Assembly: GCA_021324775.1 (NCBI GenBank) | Contig: JAJPIM010000031.1 | Coordinates: 1-43,032 of the forward strand | Direction: 5' to 3' | Length of the DNA stretch: 43,032 nt | Source: Gemmatimonadota bacterium | GTDB lineage: Bacteria; Gemmatimonadota; Gemmatimonadetes; Gemmatimonadales; Gemmatimonadaceae | Part shown: piece after piece, positions 2,371 through 43,032 of the stretch | How the letters are laid out: every line of letters starts with the position of its first letter | Position numbering within the stretch: position 1 is the first letter of the stretch | Notes under the pieces: generated by a model | Told to the model about the DNA's origin: nothing | Seen by the model: only the letters and a program-made list of their open reading frames with translations | The model's database searches: none | Translations under genes and position numbers: made by a program

Positions 2371-5184
2371 ATGAATCCCGACTCGCGCGACCAACTGCAA
2401 GCCTCGCTCGGCGCGTCGTACGTCCTGGGGCGAGGGCTGGGCCGCGGGGGCATGGCGACGGTTTACCTCGCGCAGGATACCAAGCACCACCGCCCGGTCG
2501 CGCTCAAGGTGCTGCACCCGGAGCTTGCGGCGTCGCTGGGGCCGGAGCGCTTCCGGCGGGAGATCGAACTCGCAGCCCGGCTGCAGCACCCGCACATCCT
2601 CTCGGTCTACGATTCCGGCGAGGCGGCCAGTGGCCAGTTGTGGTTCACGATGCCGTATGTCGAAGGGGAGAGCCTGCGCGCGCGCCTCCAGCGGGAACAC
2701 CAGTTGCCGATCGCCGACGCTGTGCGCATCGCGCATGAAGTGGCAGATGCGCTGGTCTATGCCCACGCGCATGGAGTGATTCATCGCGACGTCAAGCCGG
2801 AGAATATCCTGCTCTCGGGCGATCACGCGTTGCTGGCGGACTTCGGGCTCGCACGGCCTCTGATGGATGGGGCCAGCGGCCCGGGTGGCGTCACGCTGAC
2901 CGGATCCGGACTCGCGTTGGGCACGGCAGGCTATATGAGTCCGGAACAGGCGAGTGGCGAGCGGACCGTTGATGCGCGGACGGATATCTACGCGCTCGGT
3001 GTCGTGCTCTACGAGATGCTGGCGGGAGAGCCACCCTTCACCGGGCCGTCGGCGCAGGCGATGATCGCCAAGATGATGCGCGGCGTGGTGCCGGCAGTGG
3101 AGGAACAACGTCCCTCGGTGTCGCCGGCTCTCGCGTCGGTTGTGCGGACTGCGCTCGCTCCCGCGCCGGCCGACCGGTACGCGACTGCTGCCGCTTTTCG
3201 TAAAGCCCTTGACGTGGCGGAACTCGCGAGCGCTGCCGCGCCGACGGCCACCGGACCTGCGACCCGATCGAGGCCTCGCGTCCCTGTCGGTCTGGCCCTG
3301 CTCGGACTGGGGATCTGCATCGGTGCTGGATTCCTATTCGCGTGGCGCTCCAGCTGGCGGGGATCCGTCACTGGCCGCGCAGTTCGCGTCGCCGTGCTGC
3401 CGTTCGACAACCTCGGCGATTCCGCGGATGCCTATTTCGCCGACGGGATCACGGACGCTTTGCGGGGCAAGCTGGCCGCGCTGCCCGGGATAGAGGTGAT
3501 CGGAGCCACCAGTTCGGCGCATTACCACCACAGCTCCAAGAGTGCGCAGGAGATCGGACATGAGCTAGGTGCCCGCTATCTGCTTATCGGCAAGGTGCGG
3601 TGGGCCAAGGTGCCGGGTCACGAGAGCCGAGTGGAGGTGAGTCCCGAGCTGGTGGACGCGCAGTCGTCGGCGACGCGTTGGGGGGCGCCATTCGATGCCG
3701 CGCTCACGGACGTGTTCCGGGTGCAGGCGGATGTCGCGAGCCAGGTGGCGCAGGCACTCGGCCTCGCGCTGAGCACGGGAGCCCACGATTCGTTGCGCGC
3801 GCGCCCCACGCAGAACGAGGCCGCCTACAACGCGTACCTGCAGGGAACATCGGCGATGCGCGGCGATGTGGACGAAGCGCTTCCGGGCGCGGTTTCGCCG
3901 ACGCGGCAACATGCAATCGTCGCGCTTAACCAGGCCACGAGGCTCGATTCGGCGTTTGCCGATGCGTGGGCGGCATTGGCCGTTGCGGAGTCCCTGCAGT
4001 ACGCCGAAGGGGCAGGTTTCAGCCAGCCTGACTCGGCGCTCGGCGTGTCCGCTAAAGCGGACGCCGACCGCGCGATTGCCCTGGCACCACGCTCGGCTGA
4101 CGCGCACCGCGCCGAGTCCGCCTATCACCGCTACGTTCTCAACGATTTCGCCGGAGCGATGACGGAAGATTCGCTTGCGCTTCGGGTCAGGCCCAACGAT
4201 GTCGAGACCCTGAGCGACCTGGGCGCATCATACGCTGGCCTGGGTCACGCCGACGCGGCGGTCCCGCTGCTACAGCGCGCGCAGATGCTCGATCCACGCT
4301 CTACCCACGCCGCTCATGAGCTCTCCTTCACGCTTCGGCTGGCCGGCCGTGCCGACGATGCGGCAGCAGCGGCCGAACGCGGACTCGCGATAGACCCCAT
4401 CAACCTTGGCCTGCTGAACGACCTCGGGTCGGCTTGGCAAATTGTGGGTGACACAGCGCGCTCCCGCGCCGCCCTGATGCGCGTCCGCGCGATCGATCCC
4501 ACCAACGTCGCGGTGATTCTGCGTTTGGTGGTTTCGCATCTCAACGTGGGAGACCTGGATGGTGCACGCAACGTGGCGAACGCCACGTACCCGGAGATAC
4601 TGCCCGACGTACAGACCGTACAACTGTCCGAATTTGATGTGCCCTGGGTACTCGATGACGCCAGGCAGCGGCGTCTATTCAATATCCCAGTGGCGATATT
4701 CGCACCTGACCAGAAGCCGGCGTCTTTCCGCGATCGATTCCTTGCGCTCGCACACACCGCGTGGCTCCGAGGCAACACTCGAGGAGCGCGCGCGTACGGC
4801 GACAGCGCCATCGGCCCGGCGAGCGCCGTTCTCCGGGCCAACCCCGGCAATGCGGACGCGCACGAATTGCTCGCGGTCGCCGAAGCGTATGCCGGCGCCC
4901 GGCAAACGGCGTTGCGGGACGCGCATGCGGGAACAGCTTTGGCACCGCTGCGACCCGGCCTGGATGCGGCTGCCTACGACCAAGTCCAACTGGCCCGGGT
5001 CTTCACGATCCTTGGCGACGCGGATAGCGCTGCCGCGGCGCTCGAGCCGGTGCCGGCAGCAGCCCCCTTGTTCTGGTCACGGGCGTGGCTACGCATCGAC
5101 CCAACCTGGGCACCGCTCCGAACCAACTCCCGGTTCCAGCGGCTCATCGCGGATTCGGCGAGCGCCAAGCGGCCGGTGGCGTGA
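2371..5184 (+). CDS. Receptor Ser/Thr protein kinase with TolB-like and TPR domains
   Basis: A 937-residue membrane kinase. The kinase domain is about residues 18-285: glycine loop GLGRGG (22-27), catalytic Lys46 in ALKVL, HRDVKPENIL with HRD at 138-140, DFG at 157-159, and activation segment ending GYMSPEQ (187-193). A single transmembrane segment lies at about 304-325. The outer part starts with a TolB-N/FlgO-like domain (about 338-465; AVLPFDNLGDSADAYFADG is the signature) and continues with TPR-like helical repeats to the end. All core catalytic residues are present, so it should be active. This kinase-TolB-TPR layout is common in Gemmatimonadota and Acidobacteriota and is thought to link an extracytoplasmic signal to phosphorylation; ligand and targets are unknown. 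No strong Shine-Dalgarno precedes the ATG. Confidence 0.9.
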   Translation: MNPDSRDQLQASLGASYVLGRGLGRGGMATVYLAQDTKHHRPVALKVLHPELAASLGPERFRREIELAARLQHPHILSVYDSGEAASGQLWFTMPYVEGESLRARLQREHQLPIADAVRIAHEVADALVYAHAHGVIHRDVKPENILLSGDHALLADFGLARPLMDGASGPGGVTLTGSGLALGTAGYMSPEQASGERTVDARTDIYALGVVLYEMLAGEPPFTGPSAQAMIAKMMRGVVPAVEEQRPSVSPALASVVRTALAPAPADRYATAAAFRKALDVAELASAAAPTATGPATRSRPRVPVGLALLGLGICIGAGFLFAWRSSWRGSVTGRAVRVAVLPFDNLGDSADAYFADGITDALRGKLAALPGIEVIGATSSAHYHHSSKSAQEIGHELGARYLLIGKVRWAKVPGHESRVEVSPELVDAQSSATRWGAPFDAALTDVFRVQADVASQVAQALGLALSTGAHDSLRARPTQNEAAYNAYLQGTSAMRGDVDEALPGAVSPTRQHAIVALNQATRLDSAFADAWAALAVAESLQYAEGAGFSQPDSALGVSAKADADRAIALAPRSADAHRAESAYHRYVLNDFAGAMTEDSLALRVRPNDVETLSDLGASYAGLGHADAAVPLLQRAQMLDPRSTHAAHELSFTLRLAGRADDAAAAAERGLAIDPINLGLLNDLGSAWQIVGDTARSRAALMRVRAIDPTNVAVILRLVVSHLNVGDLDGARNVANATYPEILPDVQTVQLSEFDVPWVLDDARQRRLFNIPVAIFAPDQKPASFRDRFLALAHTAWLRGNTRGARAYGDSAIGPASAVLRANPGNADAHELLAVAEAYAGARQTALRDAHAGTALAPLRPGLDAAAYDQVQLARVFTILGDADSAAAALEPVPAAAPLFWSRAWLRIDPTWAPLRTNSRFQRLIADSASAKRPVA

Positions 5185-17158: not shown

Positions 17159-19108
17159 ATGGCTCCACAGCGCTACATCCGGTTGACTACCCCTCTCGTC
17201 CGAGACAACGGGTCGCTGCGTACCGCGACCTGGGAGGAGGCACTCGACCGCGCGGCGAACGGATTTCGCCGCGTGATCGACCGCCACGGTGGCGACGCGC
17301 TGGGCATCTTCTCGTGCTCGAAGGCGAGCAACGAGATGAACTTCCTGGCGCAGAAGCTCGCGCGCATCGCGTTCGGCACCCACAACGTCGATAGTTGCAA
17401 TCGAACGTGACACGCTCCTAGCGTCGCCGGTCTGGCGGCGGTCTTTGGAGCGGGCGGGGGCACGAGCTCGTACCGCGAAATGGAGGAGACGGATGTCGTC
17501 TTCCTCTGGGGCGCGAACGCGCGCGAGAACCATCCGATCATGTTCCACCACGTGTTGAAGGGCGTGCACGCTGGTGCGCGCCTGTACGTCGTCGATCCGC
17601 GCCGGACAACGTCCGCCCAATGGGCGGATCGCTGGCTGGGCCTCAGCGTGGGCACCGACATCGCGCTGGCCAACGCCATGGCGCGCGTGATCATCCACGC
17701 GGGCCTCGAGAACGCGACGTTCATCCAGAATGCGACCGAGCACTTCGAGGCGTATCGCCAGCTCGTCGAGCCCTATACGCTGGAATTCGCGGAGCAGGTG
17801 ACCGGCGTGCCAGCGTCGGTGATTCGCGAGGTGGCCCTCGACTTCGCGAAGGCCGATCGGGCGATGATCTGCTGGACGCTGGGCATCACCGAGCACCACA
17901 ACGCCGTCGACAACGTCTGCGCGCTGATCAACCTCGTCCTGCTGACCGGCCATGTCGGGCGCTACGGATCCGGTGTCAATCCGCTGCGGGGGCAGAACAA
18001 CGTGCAGGGCGGGGGCGACATGGGGGCGATCCCCAATCGCCTCGTCGGATTCCAGGACATCCTGGATCCCGCCGTGCGGGAGCGGTTCGACAAGGCGTGG
18101 GGCATCACGATGGCGCCCCGTGTCGGTATGACCATTACGGACATGTTCGAAGCGATGCACGCCGGGCATTTCCACGGGTTGTACGTCATCGGCGAGAACC
18201 CGGCGCAATCCGAGGCGAATCAGGAGCACACGATGGCGGCGCTGTCCTCGCTCGACCACATCGTCGTGCAGGACATCTTCCTGACCCGAACGGCAGAGTG
18301 CGCCGACGTGGTGCTACCTGCCTCGTCGAGCTGGTGCGAGGCGGAAGGCACGGTCACCAACAGCGAGCGCCGCGTGCAGCGGGTTCGCAAGGCGCTGGAA
18401 CCGCCGGGCGACGCACGCGACGACATGTGGATCATCACGGAGATCGGCAAACGGCTGGGCCACGATCTCGGGCCGCCGGACGCCGAAACGGTGTGGAATG
18501 AAATCCGGTCGCTGGCGCCCAAGATGTTCGGGGGGATGTCGTACGCCCGCCTCGAGGCCAACAATGGCCTCCAGTGGCCATGCCCCACGGAGTCGGATCC
18601 CGGATCGCAGTTCCTCCACGCTCGTCTCTGGGCGAAGCCACGAGTCGGTCCGGCCGCGCCGTTCTCGCTGGTCAATCACGAAGGCCCCGTCGAAATGCCG
18701 GACGCCGGCTATCCGTTCCAGCTCACCACGGGACGCCGGCTGGAATCCTACAATACCGGCGTACAGAGCGGGGGCTACACCTCGCCGCTCCGGCGGCCGG
18801 AGAGCCTCGACATGTCCCCCGAGGATGCGGCGACGCTCGGGGTCGCGGATGGCGACGCCATGCGGATCACGTCCCGCCGTGGCAGCATCGTGGCCCCGGT
18901 CCGGATCGACACGTCGCTGCGTGCGGGCCTGGTGTTCATGACGCTGCATTTCCAGGATCAAGTCCGAGTGAACGTGCTGACGACGGACGTATGGGATGCA
19001 AAATCCGGCACGTCCGAGTTCAAGGCGTGCGCCGTCCGTCTCGAGCCGGCCATGGCGGGCGAGGCGGCCGCCGAGGAGAATGCACGTGAACTCGTACCCG
19101 GAGACTGA
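17159..19108 (+). CDS. Formate dehydrogenase, catalytic C-terminal part, selenocysteine-containing
   Basis: The frame runs from ATG 17159 (GTG 17147 possible) to 19108 through one in-frame TGA at 17408-17410; 649 residues if TGA is read as selenocysteine, residue 84. Flanking residues (NVDSCNRT-Sec-HAPSVAGLA) match the active site of Sec-containing formate dehydrogenases, where Sec/Cys ligates Mo or W and a histidine follows. Later family motifs include GITEHHNAVDNVCALINL, LRGQNNVQGGGDMG, YVIGENPAQSEANQ, VLPASSSWCEAEGTVTNSERR in pieces, and the molydopterin dinucleotide-binding domain (FQLTTGRRLESYNTG onwards). Unlike FdsA/FdhA it starts directly at RYIRLTTPLVRDNG, so the whole ferredoxin-like and Mo/W [4Fe-4S] N-terminus is absent and is encoded at 21035. 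It oxidises formate to CO2, or the reverse. Confidence 0.9.
17408..17452 (+). promoter_or_regulatory. UGA selenocysteine codon and bacterial SECIS hairpin
   Basis: TGA 17408-17410 is followed by 18 nt and then GGTCT (17429-17433), the same distance and loop as I recall for E. coli fdhF. The upper stem GTCGCC (17423-17428) pairs with GGCGGC (17434-17439), including one U-G that may be a bulged U, and C17422-G17440 extends it. The lower stem CGCTCC (17413-17418) pairs perfectly with GGAGCG (17447-17452). This is a textbook SelB-binding hairpin and explains the apparent stop. Confidence 0.92.
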
Positions 19109-19127
19109 TGCCGCACCGAGGTGAGGG

Positions 19128-21038
19128 ATGGACCTCCGACTGACACTCGCCGAAGCGACCGGCGACGAGCGCGCCGCGGTGGACGCGTGCCTGGGTCCCC
19201 CCGCATCACAATGGGATGGCGGCGATCGCGATGCCGCGGTGGCAAGCCGCTCCGCGTCGGGCGGCCGGGAGCTGGGTCGCGCCAGACGGAATCTGCTGCT
19301 GCCGGCGCTACAGGCGGTACAGCGCCGGTTCGGCTGGATCACCGAGGGCGCGCTCATCTACGTGTGCGAGCGTCTCGACGTGCCCCCGGCGGAAGCGTAC
19401 GGTGTCGCCACTTTCTACGCGCTGCTCGCGACCACGCCCCGGCCACGCCGCATACTGCACGTCTGCGATGACATCGCTTGCCAGTGCCGCGGCGCGACGG
19501 AGATGATCGCCGAGCTTGAACGCGCGGCGGGGCCGCCGCTCTCGCACGGACCGCATGCCGATCACGTCATCGTCGACCCGGACGGCGCCGCCTGGATCCG
19601 GAGCCCGTGCCTCGGACTCTGCGATCAGGCGCCGGCCGCGATGCTGCAGGTGGCGGGCGAACATCCGGCCGACACGCTCTTTGGGGCGACGACCGCGCCA
19701 GAGCTCAACGCGGTGCTGCACGGGGACGATCGCATTCAGAAGCGCCCACACCCGCGCGTCCCGCAAGCGGGGGCGCCGGAACTCCGCCTGCTCGCCCGCG
19801 CCAGTGTCATCGATCCCGCGAGCCTCGACGCCTACCGCAGCACGCACGGCTATGCGGGACTCCGTCGCGCCTTCGAGCTGGGACCGGCGGGCGTGATCCG
19901 TGAGGTGCTCGACGCCAAGCTGCTGGGACGGGGCGGCGCCGCGTTTCCGACCGGCAAGAAATGGGAAGCCGTGGCGCGCCAGCCGGTACGCCCGCACTAT
20001 CTGATCTGCAACGCCGACGAGTCCGAGCCGGGCACGTTCAAGGACCGGGCGCTGATGGAAGGCGACCCGTTCGCGCTCGTCGAGGCGATGACGATCGCCG
20101 CGTACGCAACCGGCGCCGAGCTTGGCTACATCTACATCCGCGGAGAGTATCCGCTCGCGATCGAGCGCCTGGAACACGCCATCGCTCAGGCGCGTGCGCG
20201 CGGCTTGCTTGGCGACAGTGTGATGGGACACGACATGCGTTTCGAACTCGAGGTGCGGCGCGGTGGGGGGGCATATATCTGCGGCGAAGAGACCGCGCTC
20301 TTCAATTCCATTGAAGGATTCCGGGGCGAACCACGCAACAAGCCGCCCTTTCCGGTCGACGCGGGACTGTTCGCCAAGCCCACCGTCGTCAACAACGTCG
20401 AGACGCTGTACAATGTCCCGTGGATCGTGCGCGAAGGCGGCGCCGCGTTCGCCGCGATCGGAACGGCGCAATCCGCCGGCACGAAGCTGTTCTGCCTCTG
20501 TGGGTGCGTCGGGCGTCCGGGTGTCTACGAGGTCCCGTTCGGCACCACGCTGCGCGAGATGCTCACCCTCGCGGGTGGTGTGCCGGGTGGCCGTCCGCTG
20601 CGGGCCGTGCTGGTGGGCGGCGCGGCAGGCGTGTTCGTGCGCCCTGACGAACTGGATATGCCGTTAACGTTCGAGGGGACGCGGGCGGCGCAGGCCACGC
20701 TCGGCTCGGGTGTGATCATGGCTGTCGACGATACCGTCGGCCTCGAGCCCATGCTGCTGCGGATCGCGGCGTTCTTCCGCGACGAGTCGTGCGGGCAATG
20801 CGTGCCGTGCCGGGTGGGCACCGTGCGCCAGGAGGAAGCGTTGCACCGGATCACCCGCGGCCGGATGCGAGGTTCCATACGCGATGAGTTGGCGCTGCTC
20901 GGTGAGATCGGGCTCGGTATGAAGGATGCGTCCATCTGTGGACTGGGCCAGACCGCCTACAGCGCCATCGAATCCGCGATCCAGCGTCTTCGCCTCTTCG
21001 AGACGGCGGCTGCCCCCGGTGGAGCAGCGACGCCATGA
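19128..21038 (+). CDS. Formate dehydrogenase diaphorase subunit, NuoE-NuoF (FdsG-FdsB) fusion
   Basis: A 636-residue fusion. Residues about 50-200 form the NuoE-like thioredoxin-fold [2Fe-2S] domain with C113-x4-C118 and C161-x3-C165. Residues about 215-620 form the NuoF-like part: NADH/FMN site GRGGAAFPTGKKWE (268-280), NADESEPGTFKDR, GGGAYICGEETAL (379-391), and the [4Fe-4S] ligands C555-x2-C558-x2-C561 with C604. It passes electrons between the iron-sulfur chain and NAD(P). Fused FdsG-FdsB subunits are known, for example in Methylobacterium FDH1. It starts 19 nt after the catalytic gene and overlaps the next gene by 4 nt (ATGA), so the three subunits are translated together. Confidence 0.93.
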   Translation: MDLRLTLAEATGDERAAVDACLGPPASQWDGGDRDAAVASRSASGGRELGRARRNLLLPALQAVQRRFGWITEGALIYVCERLDVPPAEAYGVATFYALLATTPRPRRILHVCDDIACQCRGATEMIAELERAAGPPLSHGPHADHVIVDPDGAAWIRSPCLGLCDQAPAAMLQVAGEHPADTLFGATTAPELNAVLHGDDRIQKRPHPRVPQAGAPELRLLARASVIDPASLDAYRSTHGYAGLRRAFELGPAGVIREVLDAKLLGRGGAAFPTGKKWEAVARQPVRPHYLICNADESEPGTFKDRALMEGDPFALVEAMTIAAYATGAELGYIYIRGEYPLAIERLEHAIAQARARGLLGDSVMGHDMRFELEVRRGGGAYICGEETALFNSIEGFRGEPRNKPPFPVDAGLFAKPTVVNNVETLYNVPWIVREGGAAFAAIGTAQSAGTKLFCLCGCVGRPGVYEVPFGTTLREMLTLAGGVPGGRPLRAVLVGGAAGVFVRPDELDMPLTFEGTRAAQATLGSGVIMAVDDTVGLEPMLLRIAAFFRDESCGQCVPCRVGTVRQEEALHRITRGRMRGSIRDELALLGEIGLGMKDASICGLGQTAYSAIESAIQRLRLFETAAAPGGAATP

Positions 21039-22162
21039 CGGCACCGGGCGCACTCGTTCAAATTTCCCCGCCCCGGCGATCGGTCGAGCTCACGATCGAC
21101 GGCGACACGGTCGCCGCGCCGGAAGGCACGACGATTCTGGACGCGTGCCGGCAGCGCGGGCAGGACATTCCGACGCTGTGCTACCTGGAGACGCTGCATC
21201 CGGTCAACGCCTGCCGGGTGTGCGTCGTCGAGGTGGAGAACTCGCGTGTGCTCGTGCCGTCGTGCTCACGCAGGATCGAACCCGGCATGGTCGTGCACAC
21301 CGACTCCCCCCGGGTGCGTCACAGCCGAAAGATGGTGCTCGAGTTCCTGGCATCGTCGGTCGATTTGTCGACTACACCGCACGCGGCCGAATGGATCGCC
21401 AGCTATGAGTGCCATCCCGAACGGTACGGACCCCCGGCACCGCCAGCGGCCGCCGGGATCCGGGATGCCGCCCACGCCGGACACCATGAGCCGCCCGATC
21501 CCGCGTTCGCGGCCACCGTCCACCAGCCGATCAAGGCCGACAACGAGTTGTACGTCCGCGACTACGGGAAGTGCATCCTGTGCTACAAGTGTGTCGAGGC
21601 GTGCGGCATCGACTATCAGAATACCTATGCGATCGCGGTGGCGGGCCGTGGATTCGATGCGCGCATCTCGACCGAGTTTTCGGTGCCGCTACCCGGGTCC
21701 GCGTGCGTGTATTGCGGGAACTGCATCGCCGTGTGTCCGACGGGCGCGCTCATGTTCAGTTCGGAGCACGACCGCCGTGCCGCCGGCACGTGGGACGAGA
21801 GCCGCCAGTCCGTGGTCGATACGATCTGCCCCTATTGTGGCGTCGGATGCACGCTGTCGCTGCACGTCCAGAACAACGAGATCGTGAAGGTCACGTCGCC
21901 ATTTGACGTGTCGATCACGCACGGCAACCTGTGTATCAAGGGACGGTTCGGGTGGCAATACGTGCAGGAGCGTCCCGGCAACGGCAAACGGACGAACGGC
22001 GTGCCGCGCCGGCCCCGAGACATCGAAGCGGCCAGCAACGCGGCAGGGAAGTCCCGCCGGAAGGGCCATGACATCTCGCAACGCGATGGACCCCAGCACG
22101 ACGGGCCCCCGCACGCCGGGACGCCGGGCGACGGAGACGGGAAGGGCAGCGGGCACCCGTGA
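21035..22162 (+). CDS. Formate dehydrogenase, iron-sulfur N-terminal part of the alpha subunit
   Basis: A 375-residue protein carrying what is normally the first part of FdsA/FdhA. Residues 15-95: NuoG-like [2Fe-2S] domain (C49, C60, C63, C77). Residues 175-240: two [4Fe-4S] clusters (C180, 183, 186, 190 and C224, 227, 230, 234). Residues 263-310: the Mo/W-bisMGD [4Fe-4S] domain with C265-x2-C268-x3-C272 and C300 followed by the usual Ile-Lys-Gly. It ends at GRFGWQYVQ, exactly where the catalytic protein at 17159 would continue, followed by a 65-residue Gly/Lys/Arg/Pro-rich tail of unknown role. It must assemble with the catalytic chain in trans to complete the electron path to the Sec/Mo or W site. 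Confidence 0.92.
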   Translation: MTAPGALVQISPPRRSVELTIDGDTVAAPEGTTILDACRQRGQDIPTLCYLETLHPVNACRVCVVEVENSRVLVPSCSRRIEPGMVVHTDSPRVRHSRKMVLEFLASSVDLSTTPHAAEWIASYECHPERYGPPAPPAAAGIRDAAHAGHHEPPDPAFAATVHQPIKADNELYVRDYGKCILCYKCVEACGIDYQNTYAIAVAGRGFDARISTEFSVPLPGSACVYCGNCIAVCPTGALMFSSEHDRRAAGTWDESRQSVVDTICPYCGVGCTLSLHVQNNEIVKVTSPFDVSITHGNLCIKGRFGWQYVQERPGNGKRTNGVPRRPRDIEAASNAAGKSRRKGHDISQRDGPQHDGPPHAGTPGDGDGKGSGHP

Positions 22163-36020: not shown

Positions 36021-36170
36021 GCCGGGCTCACGCGGGGCTCATCACGCGGGGCCTCATCACGCGGGGCCTCATCACGCGGGGCCTCATCACGCGGGCTCAT
36101 CACGCGGGGCTCATCACGGGCGGCTGATCACGTGGGGGGCATCACCGGCCGCTGATCACCGAGGCTCATG
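36018..36170. repeat. Tandem repeat array of 13-15-bp units
   Basis: About ten consecutive units ending in ATCAC or a variant. Three identical 15-bp units GCGGGGCCTCATCAC lie at 36046-36060, 36061-36075 and 36076-36090, flanked by 13-14-bp versions (36032-36045, 36091-36103, 36104-36117) and decaying versions (36118-36131, 36132-36145, 36146-36159). It fills the space between the divergent flippase-like and glycosyltransferase genes. One reading frame through it is a Ser/Arg repeat, but no gene is supported. Confidence 0.85.
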
Positions 36171-36233
36171 GGGCGCATGCCGGGAGAGTATACGCGCGTT
36201 GCCCCGTGCGCGCTCGCCGGGCATCATTGCCGG

Positions 36234-37436
36234 GTGCGCATCCTCATCGTATCGACCGCGTTCCCCAGATATCAGGACGATCCGACGGCCAAATGGCTCG
36301 TCGAGACGATCCGACGGCTGGCCTCCGAGGGATATGAGTTCGAGGTGCTGACGTCCGCGTACCGAGGAGGAGGCAACACCGAATACGCGGGAATTCCGGT
36401 GCACCGGTTCCGCTACTTCTTCGCGCGCTGGGAGAACCTGACCCACGAGGAATCGGCGCCCGACCGGATGCAGCGGTCCCTGTTGTACAAGGGGATGGCG
36501 TTCAGTTACGTCGTATTCGGCACCATCGCGGCCTGGCGGCTCGGCCGCCGCGGGCGCTTCGACATCGTGCATGTCCACTGGCCGGTCCCGCACGCGATCT
36601 TCGGGTGGGCGGCGCGCGCCGGCAGCGCCTCACCGCTCAAGATCATCGCACACTTTTACTCCGTGGAGCTTCGCTGGGTCCGGCACTCCCTGCGGCCACT
36701 CCGCGGCTTTCTCCGCCGCGCGATCACGTCCGCGGATCGTGTCGTCGCGATATCCAACAGCACCGCCGCCGAGGTGCGTTCGGTGGCGCCCGTGCCGGTC
36801 GAGGTGATCCCGTATGCCGTCGACCTCCCCGTGCCGCCGCTCACGGCGCTGCCCCGCACGCAAGCGCCCGCATATTCGATCCTGTTCGTCGGACGCCTCG
36901 CGGAGCGTAAAGGCGTCCGCTATCTGATTGATGCCGTCGCGGATCTGCCTGCCGCGCTGCAGCCGCACCTCACCGTCATCGGCGACGGTCCGGAGCGCGG
37001 CGCGCTCGAAGCACAGTCGCGGGCGCGCGGTGCCGGCGACCGAGTGACGTTTCGGGGATGGGTGCCGCCCGAGGCGCTCGACGCCGCGTACACGGCGGCG
37101 TCGGTGTTCGTGCTGCCCGCCGTCGTCGATGCCCGTGGCGACACCGAGGGACTCGGCATGGTCCTCCTCGAGGCGATGGCCTATCGCGTGCCCGTGATCT
37201 CGACACCACTGGGTGGCGTGACGGACATCGTCCGGCATGACAGCACCGGGCTCCTCGTGCCGCCGAACGATGCATCGGCGCTCGCTGCGGCCATCATGCT
37301 GCTGGCGACCAACCCGGCGATCGCGGACCGTCTGGGTACCGCCGGGCGCGACTACGCGCTCAGTCACTTCAGTTGGGCCGCGGTCCTGGGACAGTGGCGC
37401 GCCCTGTACGCGGGAGTGCTGGAGCGCCAGCGGTAG
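36234..37436 (+). CDS. GT4-family glycosyltransferase
   Basis: The start is set at GTG 36234 (RILIVSTAFPRYQDDPTAKW after the initiator); ATG 36168 is possible but its first 22 residues derive from DNA next to the repeat array. GT-B fold with N-terminal acceptor domain (FDIVHVHWPVPHAIFG) and C-terminal donor domain: ILFVGRLAERKGVRYLIDAV, GDGPERGALE, VTFRGWVPPEALDAAY, then the E-x7-E motif in EGLGMVLLEAMAYRVPV, and GLLVPPNDASAL. This is a WbuB/PimB-like retaining glycosyltransferase; donor unknown. The next gene is the kinase-permease fusion, 110 nt downstream. Confidence 0.9.
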   Translation: MRILIVSTAFPRYQDDPTAKWLVETIRRLASEGYEFEVLTSAYRGGGNTEYAGIPVHRFRYFFARWENLTHEESAPDRMQRSLLYKGMAFSYVVFGTIAAWRLGRRGRFDIVHVHWPVPHAIFGWAARAGSASPLKIIAHFYSVELRWVRHSLRPLRGFLRRAITSADRVVAISNSTAAEVRSVAPVPVEVIPYAVDLPVPPLTALPRTQAPAYSILFVGRLAERKGVRYLIDAVADLPAALQPHLTVIGDGPERGALEAQSRARGAGDRVTFRGWVPPEALDAAYTAASVFVLPAVVDARGDTEGLGMVLLEAMAYRVPVISTPLGGVTDIVRHDSTGLLVPPNDASALAAAIMLLATNPAIADRLGTAGRDYALSHFSWAAVLGQWRALYAGVLERQR

Positions 37437-37546: not shown

Positions 37547-40500
37547 ATGGAACCGATGACGAGTTCCAGTGGCCCCGCCGATGATGTTGCCCCACGGCTG
37601 CAGCGCGCGATCGAGGCCCGGTACGTCCTGATCAGCCGCCTGCAGGGCGGTGCGATGTCGGCGGTGTTCCTCGCGCGCGATGCGTCGCTCGGCCGGCGCG
37701 TCGTGATCAAGGTGCTGCCAGGCGGCGTGGCCAGTGCGGATGCCATCGACCGGTTCAGGCGCGAGATCGCGACCGTTGCAGCGCTGTCTCATCCACAGAT
37801 CGTGCCGATCCTGGCTGCCGGCGACGTCGAAGGACTGCCCTACTTCGTCATGCCGTATGTCGAGGGGGAATCGCTCTCGCGCCGGCTGGCGCGGGGTCCG
37901 CTCTCCGTGCGGCAAACGGTGAGCATCCTCGTGGACGTCGCGCGGGCGTTGGCGTTCGCGCACGAGCGGGGCGTGATCCATCGTGACATCAAGCCGGGCA
38001 ACATCCTCCTCACCGCCGACTCCGCCGTCGTCACGGATTTCGGCATCGCCAAAGCTCGCGTGGCAGCCCGGCCGCGCGGCAGCCGCGCGGTCTGGCACCT
38101 CGCGAGCGACGGCTCGAATCTCACGGACCAGGGCACCTCGCTCGGCACACCGGCCTACATGGCGCCTGAGCAAATCGCGGGCGACGATGAGATCGACAAC
38201 CGTGCCGATCTGTATTCGTTCGGCGTCACCGCGTATGAGATGCTGGCCGGATCGCCGCCGTTTGCGGCCGCCACGCGCCGGCAGCTGCTGAGCGCGCATC
38301 TCGTCGAGCTGCCGACGCCGATTGCGAGGCGCCGGCAGGATGTGCCGCGCGGCCTCGCAGACGTCATCATGCAGTGCCTTGCCAAGGATCCGGAAGCGCG
38401 CCCGCGAACGGCGATGGAGATCGTCCGCACGTTGCAGGATCCCATCGCCCTCGCCACGCGCAGCGGTCAAGCCGCCGAGGCACGACGGGGAGGGGATGCC
38501 ACTCGTGCGGCCCGAGCGCTCGATCGGTTCCGCGCATTCCTCGGAGATCTCAGAGTCGGAGCCCGAAGCTTGCTCCGGGTGCCCTCGATCACCGTATCCG
38601 CTCTGGTCTGTCTCGCGCTCGGCTCAGGCGCCACGCTGTCGGTCTTCACGGCGATCGATCGGGCGTTGATCCAGCCGCTCCCGTTCTCACATGCGGGCGA
38701 GCTGGTGACCGTGTACCGCACCACGCCGCATTTCGACGGCGGGCCATTCTCTCCACCGAACTTCGCCGACCTTGCCCGGACCGATCGTAGCCTCGACAGC
38801 CTCGCGGCAATCGCGACCACGGCCGGGCACGTGTTGATCGGCGACGACGCCAGCGCAGTCAATGTCGTGCGCGCCAGCGGCGCGCTGTTCGCGGACCTTG
38901 GCGTCGCAGCATTGCACGGCCGGTTGCTCGGCAGCAATGATGGCCGCGCCGAGGCGCCCCCGGTCGCCGTTGTCAGCGAGGAATACTGGCAATCGCAGTT
39001 CGGGGCTGACCTGGCGGCGATCGGTCGCACCATCCAGCTTGACGGCGTACCGACCACCGTAGTGGGCGTCCTGCCCAGCCAGTTCCGGGTGCCGTATGGA
39101 CCCGCGGAGATCGAGGGCGACATCTGGATTCCCCTCCGATTCACCGACAAGGAGGCAAGCGCTAGTTCCCGCCGGACGAACTTCCTGGCCGTGCTCGGCA
39201 GGCTGGCCCCGGGGGCGACCGTCCGCCGAGCGGAGAGCGAACTGGTCGGATTGATGGCGGGCCTTGCAAAGACATACCCAGGCCTCGAGGGGGAGTCGGC
39301 GCGTGTCGTGCCTCTGGAGAGCGACAGCGCCGCGTCGGTGCGGCCATCGCTCCTGTTGTTGCTGGGAGCCGTGTGCATGGTGCTGCTGATCGCGACGGCC
39401 AATGTCGTCTGTCTGCTGTTGGCCAGGGGCGTGCAGCGGGAACGCGAGACCGCCATCCGCGCAGCCATGGGCGGGTCGCGATGGGCTGTGGTGCGGCCTG
39501 TCATCGCCGAGAGCACCTTACTCGCGACGGTAGGCGTCACGGCCGGCTGGGGAGTCGCGTGGCTCACCATCCGGATCATCGGCGCGCGGGTCATCGACGA
39601 CATACCGCAACTCGCCCATCTGTCGCTCGGCACTCGCATCATCCCGGTCGCGTTCGCGCTGGCGATCGTCGTGACGCTGCTGGCCGGTGCCCTCCCCGCA
39701 TGGCGCAATGCCGGGATCGAGCCACAAGCCGCGTTACGAGGCGGGACGGGTGGAGGGACTGGCCGTGACCGCAATCGGATCCTGTCGGCACTCGTCGTCG
39801 CGGAGGTCGCGCTTTCGCTCATGCTCCTGGTGGGCGCCGGGCTTATGCTCAAAGGTTTCGTCCGGCTCACGGAGCAGGACTCAGGGTTCGACCGTCGTCC
39901 GGTGTTGACCGTGGAGGCCGCCGTGTCACCGGTGCGCTACCGCGACAGTTCCGCTGTCCGTGCGTTTCTCGAGCCCGCGCTCTCGGCAATCGGCCGACTC
40001 CCCGGAGTGGAGGCGGTTGGGGCGATTTCAGTGATGCCAATCCGCAACTGGGGCTACAACTCGAACATCCGCTACGAGGGCCAGCCCGCCGAACGGATCA
40101 CGCAGCGGCCCCTTGTCGAGCAGCGCGTTTTGACCCCGGGTCTGTTTCAGGTCACCCGGCAGCATCTGATCGCCGGCCGGTTCCTTCGGGACGACGACGC
40201 AGCACCGGGAATCCCCGTCGTGGTCGTCGTGAACGACCTGCTCGCCAAGCGAGATTTCCCCGGACAAGATCCGGTCGGCAAACGCTTCTACCTGACGGAT
40301 ACCTCGTTCGCCACGATCGTAGGCGTCGTGAGCGCCATCAGCAACAACGGTCCGACTGGCGAGGCGCGGCCGGAGGTGGATTACCCATACTTTCGCGCCG
40401 GCGACGGGGCGGCGACGCGGTTCAACATCATGGTTCGAGTGCGGAACGGCGACCCTTCCCTCCTCACGGCGGCGGTCAGGACGGCGATCCGCTCGATCGA

Positions 40501-40957
40501 CAACCAGGCAGCATTGACGCGGATCATGCCGATGCCGGATGTGCTGAACGACAGTGTGCGGCGCCCACGGCTGATGCTGTCGCTCATTGGGGTCTTTGCC
40601 GGAGTCGCGGTCGTGCTCGCGATTGCCGGGCTGTACGGTGTGCTGAGCTATGCCGTCGCCCAGCGAACTCGCGAGCTTGGCATCCGGTCCGCGCTGGGTT
40701 GCACACCGGCGCAGACTGTGGGTCTGGTGGCGCGCCGCGGAATGATCCTCGCGGTCGTCGGCGTCGCCTGCGGGCTTGCCGGGGGGGCAGCCATCACCCG
40801 GCTTCTGGGGTCGATCCTGTACGGCGTCAGCCCACTCGATGGCGAGACGTGGTTCGTCGTCACCATCGCCCTGCTTGCCGCCGCGATCGTGGCCACGCTG
40901 ATTCCATCGATCCGCGCGACGCAGATCGACCCATTGCAGGCGATCCGGGCCGAGTAG
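37547..40957 (+). CDS. Ser/Thr protein kinase fused to an ADOP/MacB-type permease
   Basis: A 1136-residue fusion. The kinase domain is about residues 25-300: LQGGAMSAVF loop, Lys55 in VVIKVL, HRDIKPGNIL with HRD at 145-147, DFG at 164-166, and APEQ at 206-209. It is apparently active. The rest (about 330-1136) is an acidobacterial duplicated orphan permease: first transmembrane helix about 348-370, a MacB_PCD-like periplasmic region, FtsX helices about 605-630 and following, a second MacB_PCD region and a final set with RTRELGIRSALGCTPAQ and the usual ending SIRATQIDPLQAIRAE. Typical ADOPs have a short cytoplasmic N-terminus; here a kinase takes its place. No ATPase gene lies nearby. The gene ends 2 nt before the convergent deacetylase stop. 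Confidence 0.9.
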   Translation: MEPMTSSSGPADDVAPRLQRAIEARYVLISRLQGGAMSAVFLARDASLGRRVVIKVLPGGVASADAIDRFRREIATVAALSHPQIVPILAAGDVEGLPYFVMPYVEGESLSRRLARGPLSVRQTVSILVDVARALAFAHERGVIHRDIKPGNILLTADSAVVTDFGIAKARVAARPRGSRAVWHLASDGSNLTDQGTSLGTPAYMAPEQIAGDDEIDNRADLYSFGVTAYEMLAGSPPFAAATRRQLLSAHLVELPTPIARRRQDVPRGLADVIMQCLAKDPEARPRTAMEIVRTLQDPIALATRSGQAAEARRGGDATRAARALDRFRAFLGDLRVGARSLLRVPSITVSALVCLALGSGATLSVFTAIDRALIQPLPFSHAGELVTVYRTTPHFDGGPFSPPNFADLARTDRSLDSLAAIATTAGHVLIGDDASAVNVVRASGALFADLGVAALHGRLLGSNDGRAEAPPVAVVSEEYWQSQFGADLAAIGRTIQLDGVPTTVVGVLPSQFRVPYGPAEIEGDIWIPLRFTDKEASASSRRTNFLAVLGRLAPGATVRRAESELVGLMAGLAKTYPGLEGESARVVPLESDSAASVRPSLLLLLGAVCMVLLIATANVVCLLLARGVQRERETAIRAAMGGSRWAVVRPVIAESTLLATVGVTAGWGVAWLTIRIIGARVIDDIPQLAHLSLGTRIIPVAFALAIVVTLLAGALPAWRNAGIEPQAALRGGTGGGTGRDRNRILSALVVAEVALSLMLLVGAGLMLKGFVRLTEQDSGFDRRPVLTVEAAVSPVRYRDSSAVRAFLEPALSAIGRLPGVEAVGAISVMPIRNWGYNSNIRYEGQPAERITQRPLVEQRVLTPGLFQVTRQHLIAGRFLRDDDAAPGIPVVVVVNDLLAKRDFPGQDPVGKRFYLTDTSFATIVGVVSAISNNGPTGEARPEVDYPYFRAGDGAATRFNIMVRVRNGDPSLLTAAVRTAIRSIDNQAALTRIMPMPDVLNDSVRRPRLMLSLIGVFAGVAVVLAIAGLYGVLSYAVAQRTRELGIRSALGCTPAQTVGLVARRGMILAVVGVACGLAGGAAITRLLGSILYGVSPLDGETWFVVTIALLAAAIVATLIPSIRATQIDPLQAIRAE

Positions 40958-40959
40958 GC

Positions 40960-42504
40960 CTACGTGGGGCCGGTCGCCGCGAGCCGCTCGCGAGGCCGGC
41001 CATCGGCGTCCTCGACAATCACCTCGAAGGCACGAGGCGACGGACCGGCCAGCGTCACATTGCCATCCGCACTCACAGCCGTGGCGCGCACCGCCCGGCG
41101 GAGGGATCGCCATTCCGTAATGCGCTGCAACGGAGCCATGTACGGATGCTCGGCCGCCAGCGCCGCGACTAGCCGCTCGAACGCGGCGGGCGCACCCGGA
41201 AAACCCAGAGCCGCCGTAAGGTTGGGATGCCAGAGTCCGACCCACAAACCCTCGGCCCGGCGGCATACGTCGGCGAGTGCCATGGCGTCGGCAATCCATT
41301 GGCCGGGATCTTCGATCCCCTGGTACTTGCTCTGCGCGCGATCCATCCACACGAGCGGTACCTCGTCGAGCGGCAACGTTCGCTGCCCAGCGGCGTCCCA
41401 CGCCGGGACGACATCGACCACACCCAGCCGAAACGCGTTCCGGTCAGGGAACCCATAGGTCGCGTCATAGCTGAATCCCGCACCGGCCATCCACCGCTGG
41501 GTCACTCCCGGCCGCATGCGCAAATAATGCTGGCGGACGCCCACCGCGTCCGCGGCGGACAGCGCGCGTAGGCGTACGCGCTGTTCGCCGAACACGCCCG
41601 CCGCATCGCCGGTCGCGAAGCTGCCGTGCAGTCCGAGCTCGTGCCCGCGCGCGACGACGGCGCGCATGATCCGCCGAGCGGCGGGCGATTCCGGCCGATA
41701 GGTCAGGTCTCCGGCGCGAAAAGTGGCAGCGGTCGGCGTGCCACAGAGCATGAACCACGTGGATGTCACGCCGTACCGTTGCTCCGCATCGAGCACTGCC
41801 CGGACGCCGGCCCAGACTGGATCGCCACCCGTCTGGCCCGCGGCCGCGGCCAGGACGCCGGCCGCCAGGCGCCCCTGCCCTTTACTCACCAGTTCCACCA
41901 GGCGGAGCGCCGTGAACGCAGGCCACGCCGCCACGACGTCGACGTCGTGCGTGAGCGCCGCGCACCACCGGTGCCCGTCCGGCCATGGGGCGAGCACGCG
42001 CACCGGCCGCGACCCGGCAGCCTGCGCGACGGCCTCGCGGAGGCGCGCGCTTGCGGTCGAGACAACCGGCTCGCGCTCGACGCCGGCGGCGACCAGCGGG
42101 TTGGCGGCCGATGGAGTCCTGCCGTAGCGATCGCGCGCCGGCGATGCCTGCTCGATCGCCGCACCGGCGATGTCAGCTACGCCGCGAAGCAGCGCTCGCG
42201 GCACCGTGACCGCCCCATCGGCGACTGCGATGACCTCCGCGAGACTCGCCACCGCCTGCACGGACGGAGTGCCATCCACCGGCGTCGCGAGCGTGCCAGT
42301 GTAGAGCGTCACCACCGATGAGCTGGAGGGCGCCGGCGCGCCGGTGTCGTCCAGTACGACGAGGCGCGATAGATCGACGAGCACACCCAGCCCGTACTCT
42401 TCAGCGGGGCTGAGCGCGAGCGCCGCTGGCGCGATGCGAATCACGAGACGCCGCCGGTGGCGCGGCGCCGCATCGCCGGATCGCATGGCCGGCAGATTGG
42501 CCAT
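40960..42504 (-). CDS. Polysaccharide deacetylase-family protein
   Basis: The start is ATG 42504 (MANLPAMRSGD); a longer frame to 42609 is unlikely, since it enters the region of the divergent acyltransferase gene. 514 residues. The N-terminal 160 residues are an uncharacterised domain. The deacetylase NodB-like part follows: motif 1 as CAALTHDVDVV (metal Asp), motif 2 as RGHELGLHGSFA (H-x3-H type), then RHYLR-like QHYLRMRP and a late GLWHPNLT. The THDVD version of motif 1 is common in capsule/exopolysaccharide cluster members. It removes N-acetyl groups from glycans or from lipid-linked precursors. It is divergent from the acyltransferase at 42572 and convergent with the kinase-permease gene. 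Confidence 0.82.
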   Translation of the reverse strand: MANLPAMRSGDAAPRHRRRLVIRIAPAALALSPAEEYGLGVLVDLSRLVVLDDTGAPAPSSSSVVTLYTGTLATPVDGTPSVQAVASLAEVIAVADGAVTVPRALLRGVADIAGAAIEQASPARDRYGRTPSAANPLVAAGVEREPVVSTASARLREAVAQAAGSRPVRVLAPWPDGHRWCAALTHDVDVVAAWPAFTALRLVELVSKGQGRLAAGVLAAAAGQTGGDPVWAGVRAVLDAEQRYGVTSTWFMLCGTPTAATFRAGDLTYRPESPAARRIMRAVVARGHELGLHGSFATGDAAGVFGEQRVRLRALSAADAVGVRQHYLRMRPGVTQRWMAGAGFSYDATYGFPDRNAFRLGVVDVVPAWDAAGQRTLPLDEVPLVWMDRAQSKYQGIEDPGQWIADAMALADVCRRAEGLWVGLWHPNLTAALGFPGAPAAFERLVAALAAEHPYMAPLQRITEWRSLRRAVRATAVSADGNVTLAGPSPRAFEVIVEDADGRPRERLAATGPT

Positions 42505-42571
42505 CCCGCAGCGTCCGAAGCGGATGCCGGGCGCTTGACGGCAGCCACGCGCCCGCGCCACCTTCCGGCCC

Positions 42572-43032
42572 GTGGCCCGGACGCTGCTCCCCAAGTCGCG
42601 CATTCCCATCGGCCACCTGCTGTGCTTCGGGTGGCTTCCGAGCCCGGTGAAGGTCTGGGCATACCGGGCGCTACTCGGCTACCGCATCGGGCGACGCGTG
42701 CGCATAGCCTTTGGCGGCGTGATCATCGGGACCGACGTCGAGTTGGGAGACCACGTAGAGATCGGGTTGCTCACCGTCGTGCAAGGGCGGCGGATACGCA
42801 TCGGCCGTCATTCGAGTATCGGCACGATGTCGTACGTGTCCTGTGAGCAGATCGAGATCGGCGAAGACGCGCGCATCCGCGAGCAGGTGTTCGTCGGCGG
42901 CCCGCAGCTTCCCGAATCCCGGTTCTCACTCGGCGATCGAACGATAGTGCTGCAGATGGCCAACATCAATCCGACGAAGCCCGTCGTGATCGGCGATGAT
43001 ACCGGGATCGGCGGCCACTGCCTCATCTTTAC
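42572..43032 (+). CDS. Left-handed beta-helix (hexapeptide) acyltransferase, C-terminus outside window
   Basis: The frame is open from GTG 42572 to the right edge (153 codons), so it has no stop here. Hexapeptide repeats of the [LIV]-G-x4 type are regular: IGRRVRIAFGG, IGTDVELGDHVEIG, IRIGRHSSIGTMSYV, IEIGEDARIREQV, VIGDDTGIGGH. This is the fold of WbbJ/LpxA-type O-acetyltransferases that modify sugars in capsule or lipopolysaccharide. It pairs sensibly with the divergent polysaccharide deacetylase and the nearby glycosyltransferase genes. The catalytic histidine is probably beyond the window. The start is tentative, as no clear Shine-Dalgarno is visible. Confidence 0.78.
   Translation, partial: MARTLLPKSRIPIGHLLCFGWLPSPVKVWAYRALLGYRIGRRVRIAFGGVIIGTDVELGDHVEIGLLTVVQGRRIRIGRHSSIGTMSYVSCEQIEIGEDARIREQVFVGGPQLPESRFSLGDRTIVLQMANINPTKPVVIGDDTGIGGHCLIF

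Follow-up and report, generated by a model that had tools for sequence, protein, structure and literature searches.

The window, a 43,032-nucleotide stretch of Gemmatimonadota DNA, encodes a protein in which a Hanks-type Ser/Thr kinase and a complete permease of the ADOP family lie in one chain, the kinase N-terminal and the permease C-terminal (Pfam and NCBIfam). We give an even chance to the reading that this fusion works as a membrane receptor kinase of the Ser/Thr type, built as a single chain with the ADOP half as its periplasmic input, in which we infer the direction of control, the ligand, the target and kinase activity itself. The ADOP half joins two FtsX/MacB units covalently into a pseudo-dimer with eight transmembrane (TM) helices and two periplasmic domains. 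In such a receptor it would be the input part, binding an envelope-derived ligand or tracking the state of the envelope. The stalk and TM helices would carry a change in the periplasmic domains to the N-terminus in the cytosol. There the kinase would occupy the place of the ABC ATPase in MacB; the transmitted change would alter kinase activity, and the kinase would then phosphorylate putative cytosolic targets. Control of the kinase from the periplasmic side, opposite in direction to MacB, is the simplest reading because the kinases of such fusions are constant, their periplasmic domains appear exchangeable, most carry a helix-turn-helix, and no partner gene accompanies them.

The fusion gene (positions 37547..40957, + strand) is one intact frame of 1136 amino acids that begins with ATG and contains no internal stop, and the matches to both families within it confirm a sequence-only reading of this DNA, which had proposed a kinase fused directly to an ADOP permease. 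Third-position GC is about 0.8 in one frame on either side of the junction and flatter within an Ala/Arg-rich linker to TM1 (residues 299-344; 38441..38578, + strand), which lacks conservation. Because this periodicity stays in the same frame across the junction, nothing points to a frameshift. Further, the join at residues 300-340, where the sequence-only reading had placed a possible artefact, is also present in two relatives from independent genomes (L009 and L010), and the independent assemblies with the identical join include a three-contig genome. Given this recurrence and the single-frame coding, we rejected the idea that an assembly artefact or a frameshift merged two adjacent genes; its probability is negligible.

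The kinase domain (residues 20-298; 37604..38440, + strand; PF00069, structural matches and an AlphaFold model) gives a Pkinase match at residues 31-293 with 146 bits and an E value of 1e-42. Alignment places its functional residues at K55, E73, H145-R146-D147, K149, N152 and D164-F165-G166, followed by G200-T201, E208, D221 and R285, so that the lysine, glutamate, HRD, asparagine, DFG and APE elements of a Hanks-type Ser/Thr kinase are all there. The earlier statement that all kinase catalytic residues are present thus stands, with one small flaw: Q33 takes the position of the first glycine of the P-loop, the sole oddity in the domain. Within the activation segment from DFG to APE (residues 164-209; 38036..38173, + strand), the candidate phosphorylation sites T193, S198 and T201 are common to all three aligned type I fusions. 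AlphaFold models residues 11-300 with pLDDT mostly 80-98, except for the activation loop (about residues 171-200), which is modelled as disordered at pLDDT 40-55. The alignment behind this model was rich in kinases only; because the ADOP half had just two homologues in the input, its model (pLDDT mostly <60) is unusable. The nearest solved structures are those of mycobacterial PknB (PDB 3orm, 168 bits), the closest PDB match and the main likeness to PknB-type kinases. Unlike these, the fusion has no PASTA repeats in Pfam or NCBIfam, reaches 250 bits against the cut-off of 450 for the PknB/Stk1 PASTA kinase model NF033483 (over the kinase only), and would have an FtsX/MacB-fold permease as its sensor.

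The ADOP half, a duplicated orphan permease (residues 332-1136; 38540..40954, + strand), matches TIGR03434 at 748.5 bits, above the curated cut-off of 622.3, over profile positions 2-803 of 803, and Pfam finds in it two MacB_PCD (PF12704) and two FtsX (PF02687) domains. This full-model match, with two FtsX blocks and two periplasmic core domains, upholds the description of the C-terminus as a complete duplicated FtsX/MacB-type permease. The fold leads one to expect 4+4 TM helices, most of which hydropathy resolves. The FtsX fold suggests that the periplasmic domains lie outside and the kinase in the cytosol, which would give the layout of a one-chain receptor-type kinase: periplasmic domain, TM helices and cytosolic kinase. 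Like other ADOPs, the C-terminal 805 residues match the whole family model above its cut-off without an adjacent ATPase; unlike them, they follow a complete Ser/Thr kinase. All 105 ADOPs that were scored in the Acidobacteria genome G335 are unfused, so that fusion is the exception among ADOPs. The kinase had been thought to replace a usual short N-terminal domain, which did not hold: standalone ADOPs of the clade to which this ADOP half belongs start 10 to about 60 residues ahead of the ADOP core (99 at most, counted stop to stop) and lack a domain in front of it. The kinase is an addition to a prefix-less ADOP, with nothing replaced.

Of the 45 ABC ATPases in the genome (PF00005), none lies on the 43-kb contig, in agreement with the earlier remark that no ABC ATPase is next to the gene; the protein here resembles an ADOP, with no fused or adjacent ATPase, and not MacB. 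The same holds for the family at large, however, as an ATPase directly adjoins only one of the 21 ADOP matches in the genome. A missing neighbouring ATPase is the norm for ADOPs and by itself no argument for a receptor, so that the step from no ATPase nearby to a receptor is a weak one. At the single exception (G000:C37:173075-177013), two matches to ABC ATPases begin at a distance of 200 bp, on the same strand as the ADOP. The fusion also retains the coupling-helix motif in both halves, at residues 627-656 (39425..39514, + strand; ExAxRxAxG type, cytosolic) and at residues 1036-1066 (40652..40744, + strand), as do all 21 fusions that we aligned. In MacB the coupling helix is the contact with the ATPase, and the motif of the first half can be equated with CH1 of MacB (PMC8277102). 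Because the motif persists in both halves, it is possible that an ABC ATPase acts on the fusion in trans, and any of the 45 in the genome could do so. These observations speak for an effector role of the permease, in which the kinase would phosphorylate ADOP loops, or a shared bound ATPase, and thereby switch export or lipid or lipoprotein handling. In Mycobacterium tuberculosis, PknF modulates Rv1747, and the kinase gene adjoins the transporter gene (PMC3908365). As in the fusion, a Ser/Thr kinase and a membrane protein of the ABC superfamily form a functional pair, although the two are separate genes and Rv1747 has its own ATPase and FHA domains. We consider regulation of the ADOP by the kinase unlikely and place control of the kinase by the ADOP above it, partly on the evidence from the locus and from other fusions.

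The gene lies between a GT4 glycosyltransferase gene (36168..37436, + strand) and a convergent polysaccharide-deacetylase-like gene (40960..42609, - strand). These two genes border an empty site in G104 and G107, the two further genomes of the genus: there they are direct neighbours separated by roughly 180-240 bp, and the kinase-ADOP gene is missing from this locus. All three genomes share the gene order YfhO, methyltransferase, LPG-synthase-like, GT4, deacetylase and hexapeptide transferase. The fusion is present in one of the three; the species studied here gained a single gene at this site, loss in both others being less simple. Comparison of the flanks with G104 and G107 shows that no partner gene arrived with the inserted fusion; in particular it came without an ATPase, which weighs against a kinase that regulates a transporting ADOP. 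Such patchiness is also what would be expected of a chance fusion on a recently inserted gene, without selected joint function, and the abundance of both ADOP and kinase genes makes accidental joins likely. We nevertheless give this explanation only a slim chance, as two other genomes encode proteins with the same order, 46-47% identical and with no catalytic residue lost, and several classes of fusion exist in two phyla.

The two relatives that match over the full length in the same order, L009 in G072 (47% identity) and L010 in G182 (46%), come from another genus of the same family and adjoin a TSUP-type transporter gene (translation read by eye), not the flanking genes of the window. Together with the window protein they make up type I. 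In a tree with 55 other kinases, the three type I kinases form a single clade (support 98/96). Their ADOP halves all fall inside one ADOP clade (100/100) that also has standalone members, without grouping together; an AU test was borderline against one group (p 0.045). The ADOP half of the window protein is 53% identical to standalone ADOPs vs 44% to L009 and L010. Type I may thus go back to a single fusion followed by kinase loss, or related kinases may have been fused twice to related ADOPs; both are possible on these trees.

A search for the same fusion across Gemmatimonadota and Acidobacteriota, which the sequence-only reading had suggested, found it in both phyla: in at least 12 of 298 Gemmatimonadota and at least 3 of 247 Acidobacteriota genomes. 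None was found in 145 Verrucomicrobiota genomes, for which few candidates per genome were scored. The large searches scored the best two candidates per genome, and every count of fusions is therefore a lower bound; queries with fusions, not with ADOPs alone, brought out further ones. The total is at least 21, with 3 of type I, 17 of type II and 1 of type III, the last a kinase-ADOP protein in G143. Type II, first met in G139 (L044) and G120 (L206), has the order helix-turn-helix, kinase, ADOP. At least 15 type II modules occur in the Gemmatimonadota sample, 14 of which continue into a whole ADOP and are spread over eight other genomes, six of them in G103 alone; the fifteenth, in a frame of 444 residues, has no ADOP. 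Acidobacteriota add at least three type II fusions, one shortened by a TAA. Beside the type II fusions no neighbours recur beyond kinases and ADOPs, except for one family at 3 of 18 loci, and the search for a conserved ATPase partner, likewise suggested earlier, found none on the contig of the window and no partner gene that recurs beside type II fusions. A contig scan with an alignment of three fusions yielded patterns that are kinase motifs and matches that are mostly kinases; in two of these loci (L055 and L109) an ADOP lies near a kinase in a separate frame. At L055 (3-1685), one frame reads by eye as an alpha/beta-hydrolase-like segment followed by the Ser/Thr kinase, and the ADOP lies downstream on that strand in a frame of its own. 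L206 (5815-12101, G120) holds a standalone ADOP of the same clade as that of the window protein, with a type II fusion 65 bp downstream on the same strand.

None of the 21 aligned fusions has lost the catalytic lysine, glutamate, HxD aspartate, asparagine or DFG. Type I and type III kinases have HRD, and all 17 type II kinases (for example L206, L044, L254-L265 and L300-L302) have HCD in its place and are thus non-RD, with the catalytic aspartate kept. Because of this difference, type I may need phosphorylation of the activation loop and type II may not, as general knowledge of kinases suggests. Mean identity among type I fusions is 60% for the kinase vs 48% for the ADOP half (43-48% for the periplasmic core domains); among type II it is 55% vs 29%, lowest in the periplasmic domains at about 25%. 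L044 and L206, for instance, are about 60% identical in the N-terminal module vs about 28% in the ADOP half. This contrast is weak evidence alone, as rapid evolution of the periplasmic domains may be common to ADOPs in general, and more weight falls on the tree: the helix-turn-helix-kinase part of type II is one family, though its ADOP parts are dispersed across the ADOP tree (47 rows), where the type II label changes 9 times, at least 6 of them forced by supported branches. These supported changes mean that the kinase module was fused to ADOPs of several lineages, or that ADOP halves were exchanged.

One kinase module on many unrelated ADOPs would be odd for a substrate-specific regulator, and most other fusions bear a helix-turn-helix; both observations count against a kinase that controls its ADOP. 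Membrane tethering is common among bacterial Hanks kinases. The ADOP half could accordingly serve as a mere membrane anchor or clustering device, with a kinase that is constitutive or set by concentration or oligomer state, and the low ADOP identity among type II fusions would fit such a use. A single TM helix would suffice for that purpose, yet nearly all fusions keep an ADOP of 800 residues with two periplasmic domains and both FtsX blocks, and we regard an anchor as improbable, more so than regulation of the ADOP by the kinase.

For a receptor with the ADOP as input, we count the intact sites in 21 of 21 fusions, the conserved kinase beside a variable periplasmic part, the type I kinase clade, the many ADOP lineages under one type II kinase family, the lone insertion and the lack of a recurrent neighbour beside type II fusions. 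In type II, the DNA-binding-like helix-turn-helix at what should be the cytosolic end is in keeping with an output there. Against a receptor, we count the retained coupling-helix motif, the origin of the tree argument in type II and not in the type I of the window, the lack of a helix-turn-helix in the type I protein, and the Bce and FtsEX relatives, which drive the change by an ATPase, none being identified for the fusion. The earlier suggestion that the permease may act as a receptor and not a pump thus gains from recurrence, intact sites, variable periplasmic parts on a constant kinase, the helix-turn-helix and the lack of a conserved partner gene near type II fusions, while the part of it that relied on the missing ATPase carries little weight.

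Known systems offer partial precedents for such a receptor. The fusion shares with MacB, a type VII ABC transporter, the FtsX/MacB fold and a nucleotide-using cytosolic domain N-terminal to TM1; it differs in having a kinase for the ABC ATPase and a permease duplicated in one chain. In MacB the N-terminally fused ATPase drives periplasmic movement from inside, and FtsEX signals, apparently without transport (PMC8277102). The nearest precedent is BceAB-BceS, in which a permease of the FtsX superfamily that does not transport controls a kinase and is proposed as its sensor (PMC10314905). That system consists of separate proteins, with a histidine kinase, a cognate ATPase (BceA) and a permease of 10 TM helices (BceB), unlike the fusion, which has a Ser/Thr kinase and no ATPase on its contig and so is not a Bce-type module.

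Somewhat more tentatively, and with less than an even chance, we suggest that ADOPs, or some of them, are exchangeable periplasmic sensors for Hanks kinases and form with them an undescribed class of receptor kinase, whose helix-turn-helix chains would join envelope sensing, an HCD kinase and DNA binding. If this is true, it would give a signalling role to a large orphan family, which has 21 matches in the genome of the window and more than 100 in one Acidobacteria genome. Should the receptor reading hold, ATPase-less permeases of the FtsX/MacB fold would be a further input for Ser/Thr kinases of bacteria beside those already known. Kinase and ADOP are both known families and what appears new is their combination, although domain databases may well list this architecture already. 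The literature searched, thin in subscription journals and preprints, held nothing relevant on ADOP, TIGR03434 or kinase-FtsX fusions, and no functional study of ADOPs was found in it. A recurrent fused kinase with intact sites makes the role of ADOPs directly testable, by following phosphorylation while the ADOP half is altered.

Several minor observations concern other genes. The genome of the window has about 35 kinase matches beside its 21 ADOP matches, and five kinase genes lie inside one 26-kb contig (G000:C35). A second Hanks kinase in the window (2371-5184) carries C-terminal TPR repeats. A formate-dehydrogenase/NuoG-like catalytic subunit (17480-22162) looks split, with a molybdopterin half (17480-19105), a NuoE-NuoF fusion (19128-21035) and an Fe-S N-terminal half (21035-22159) in that order.
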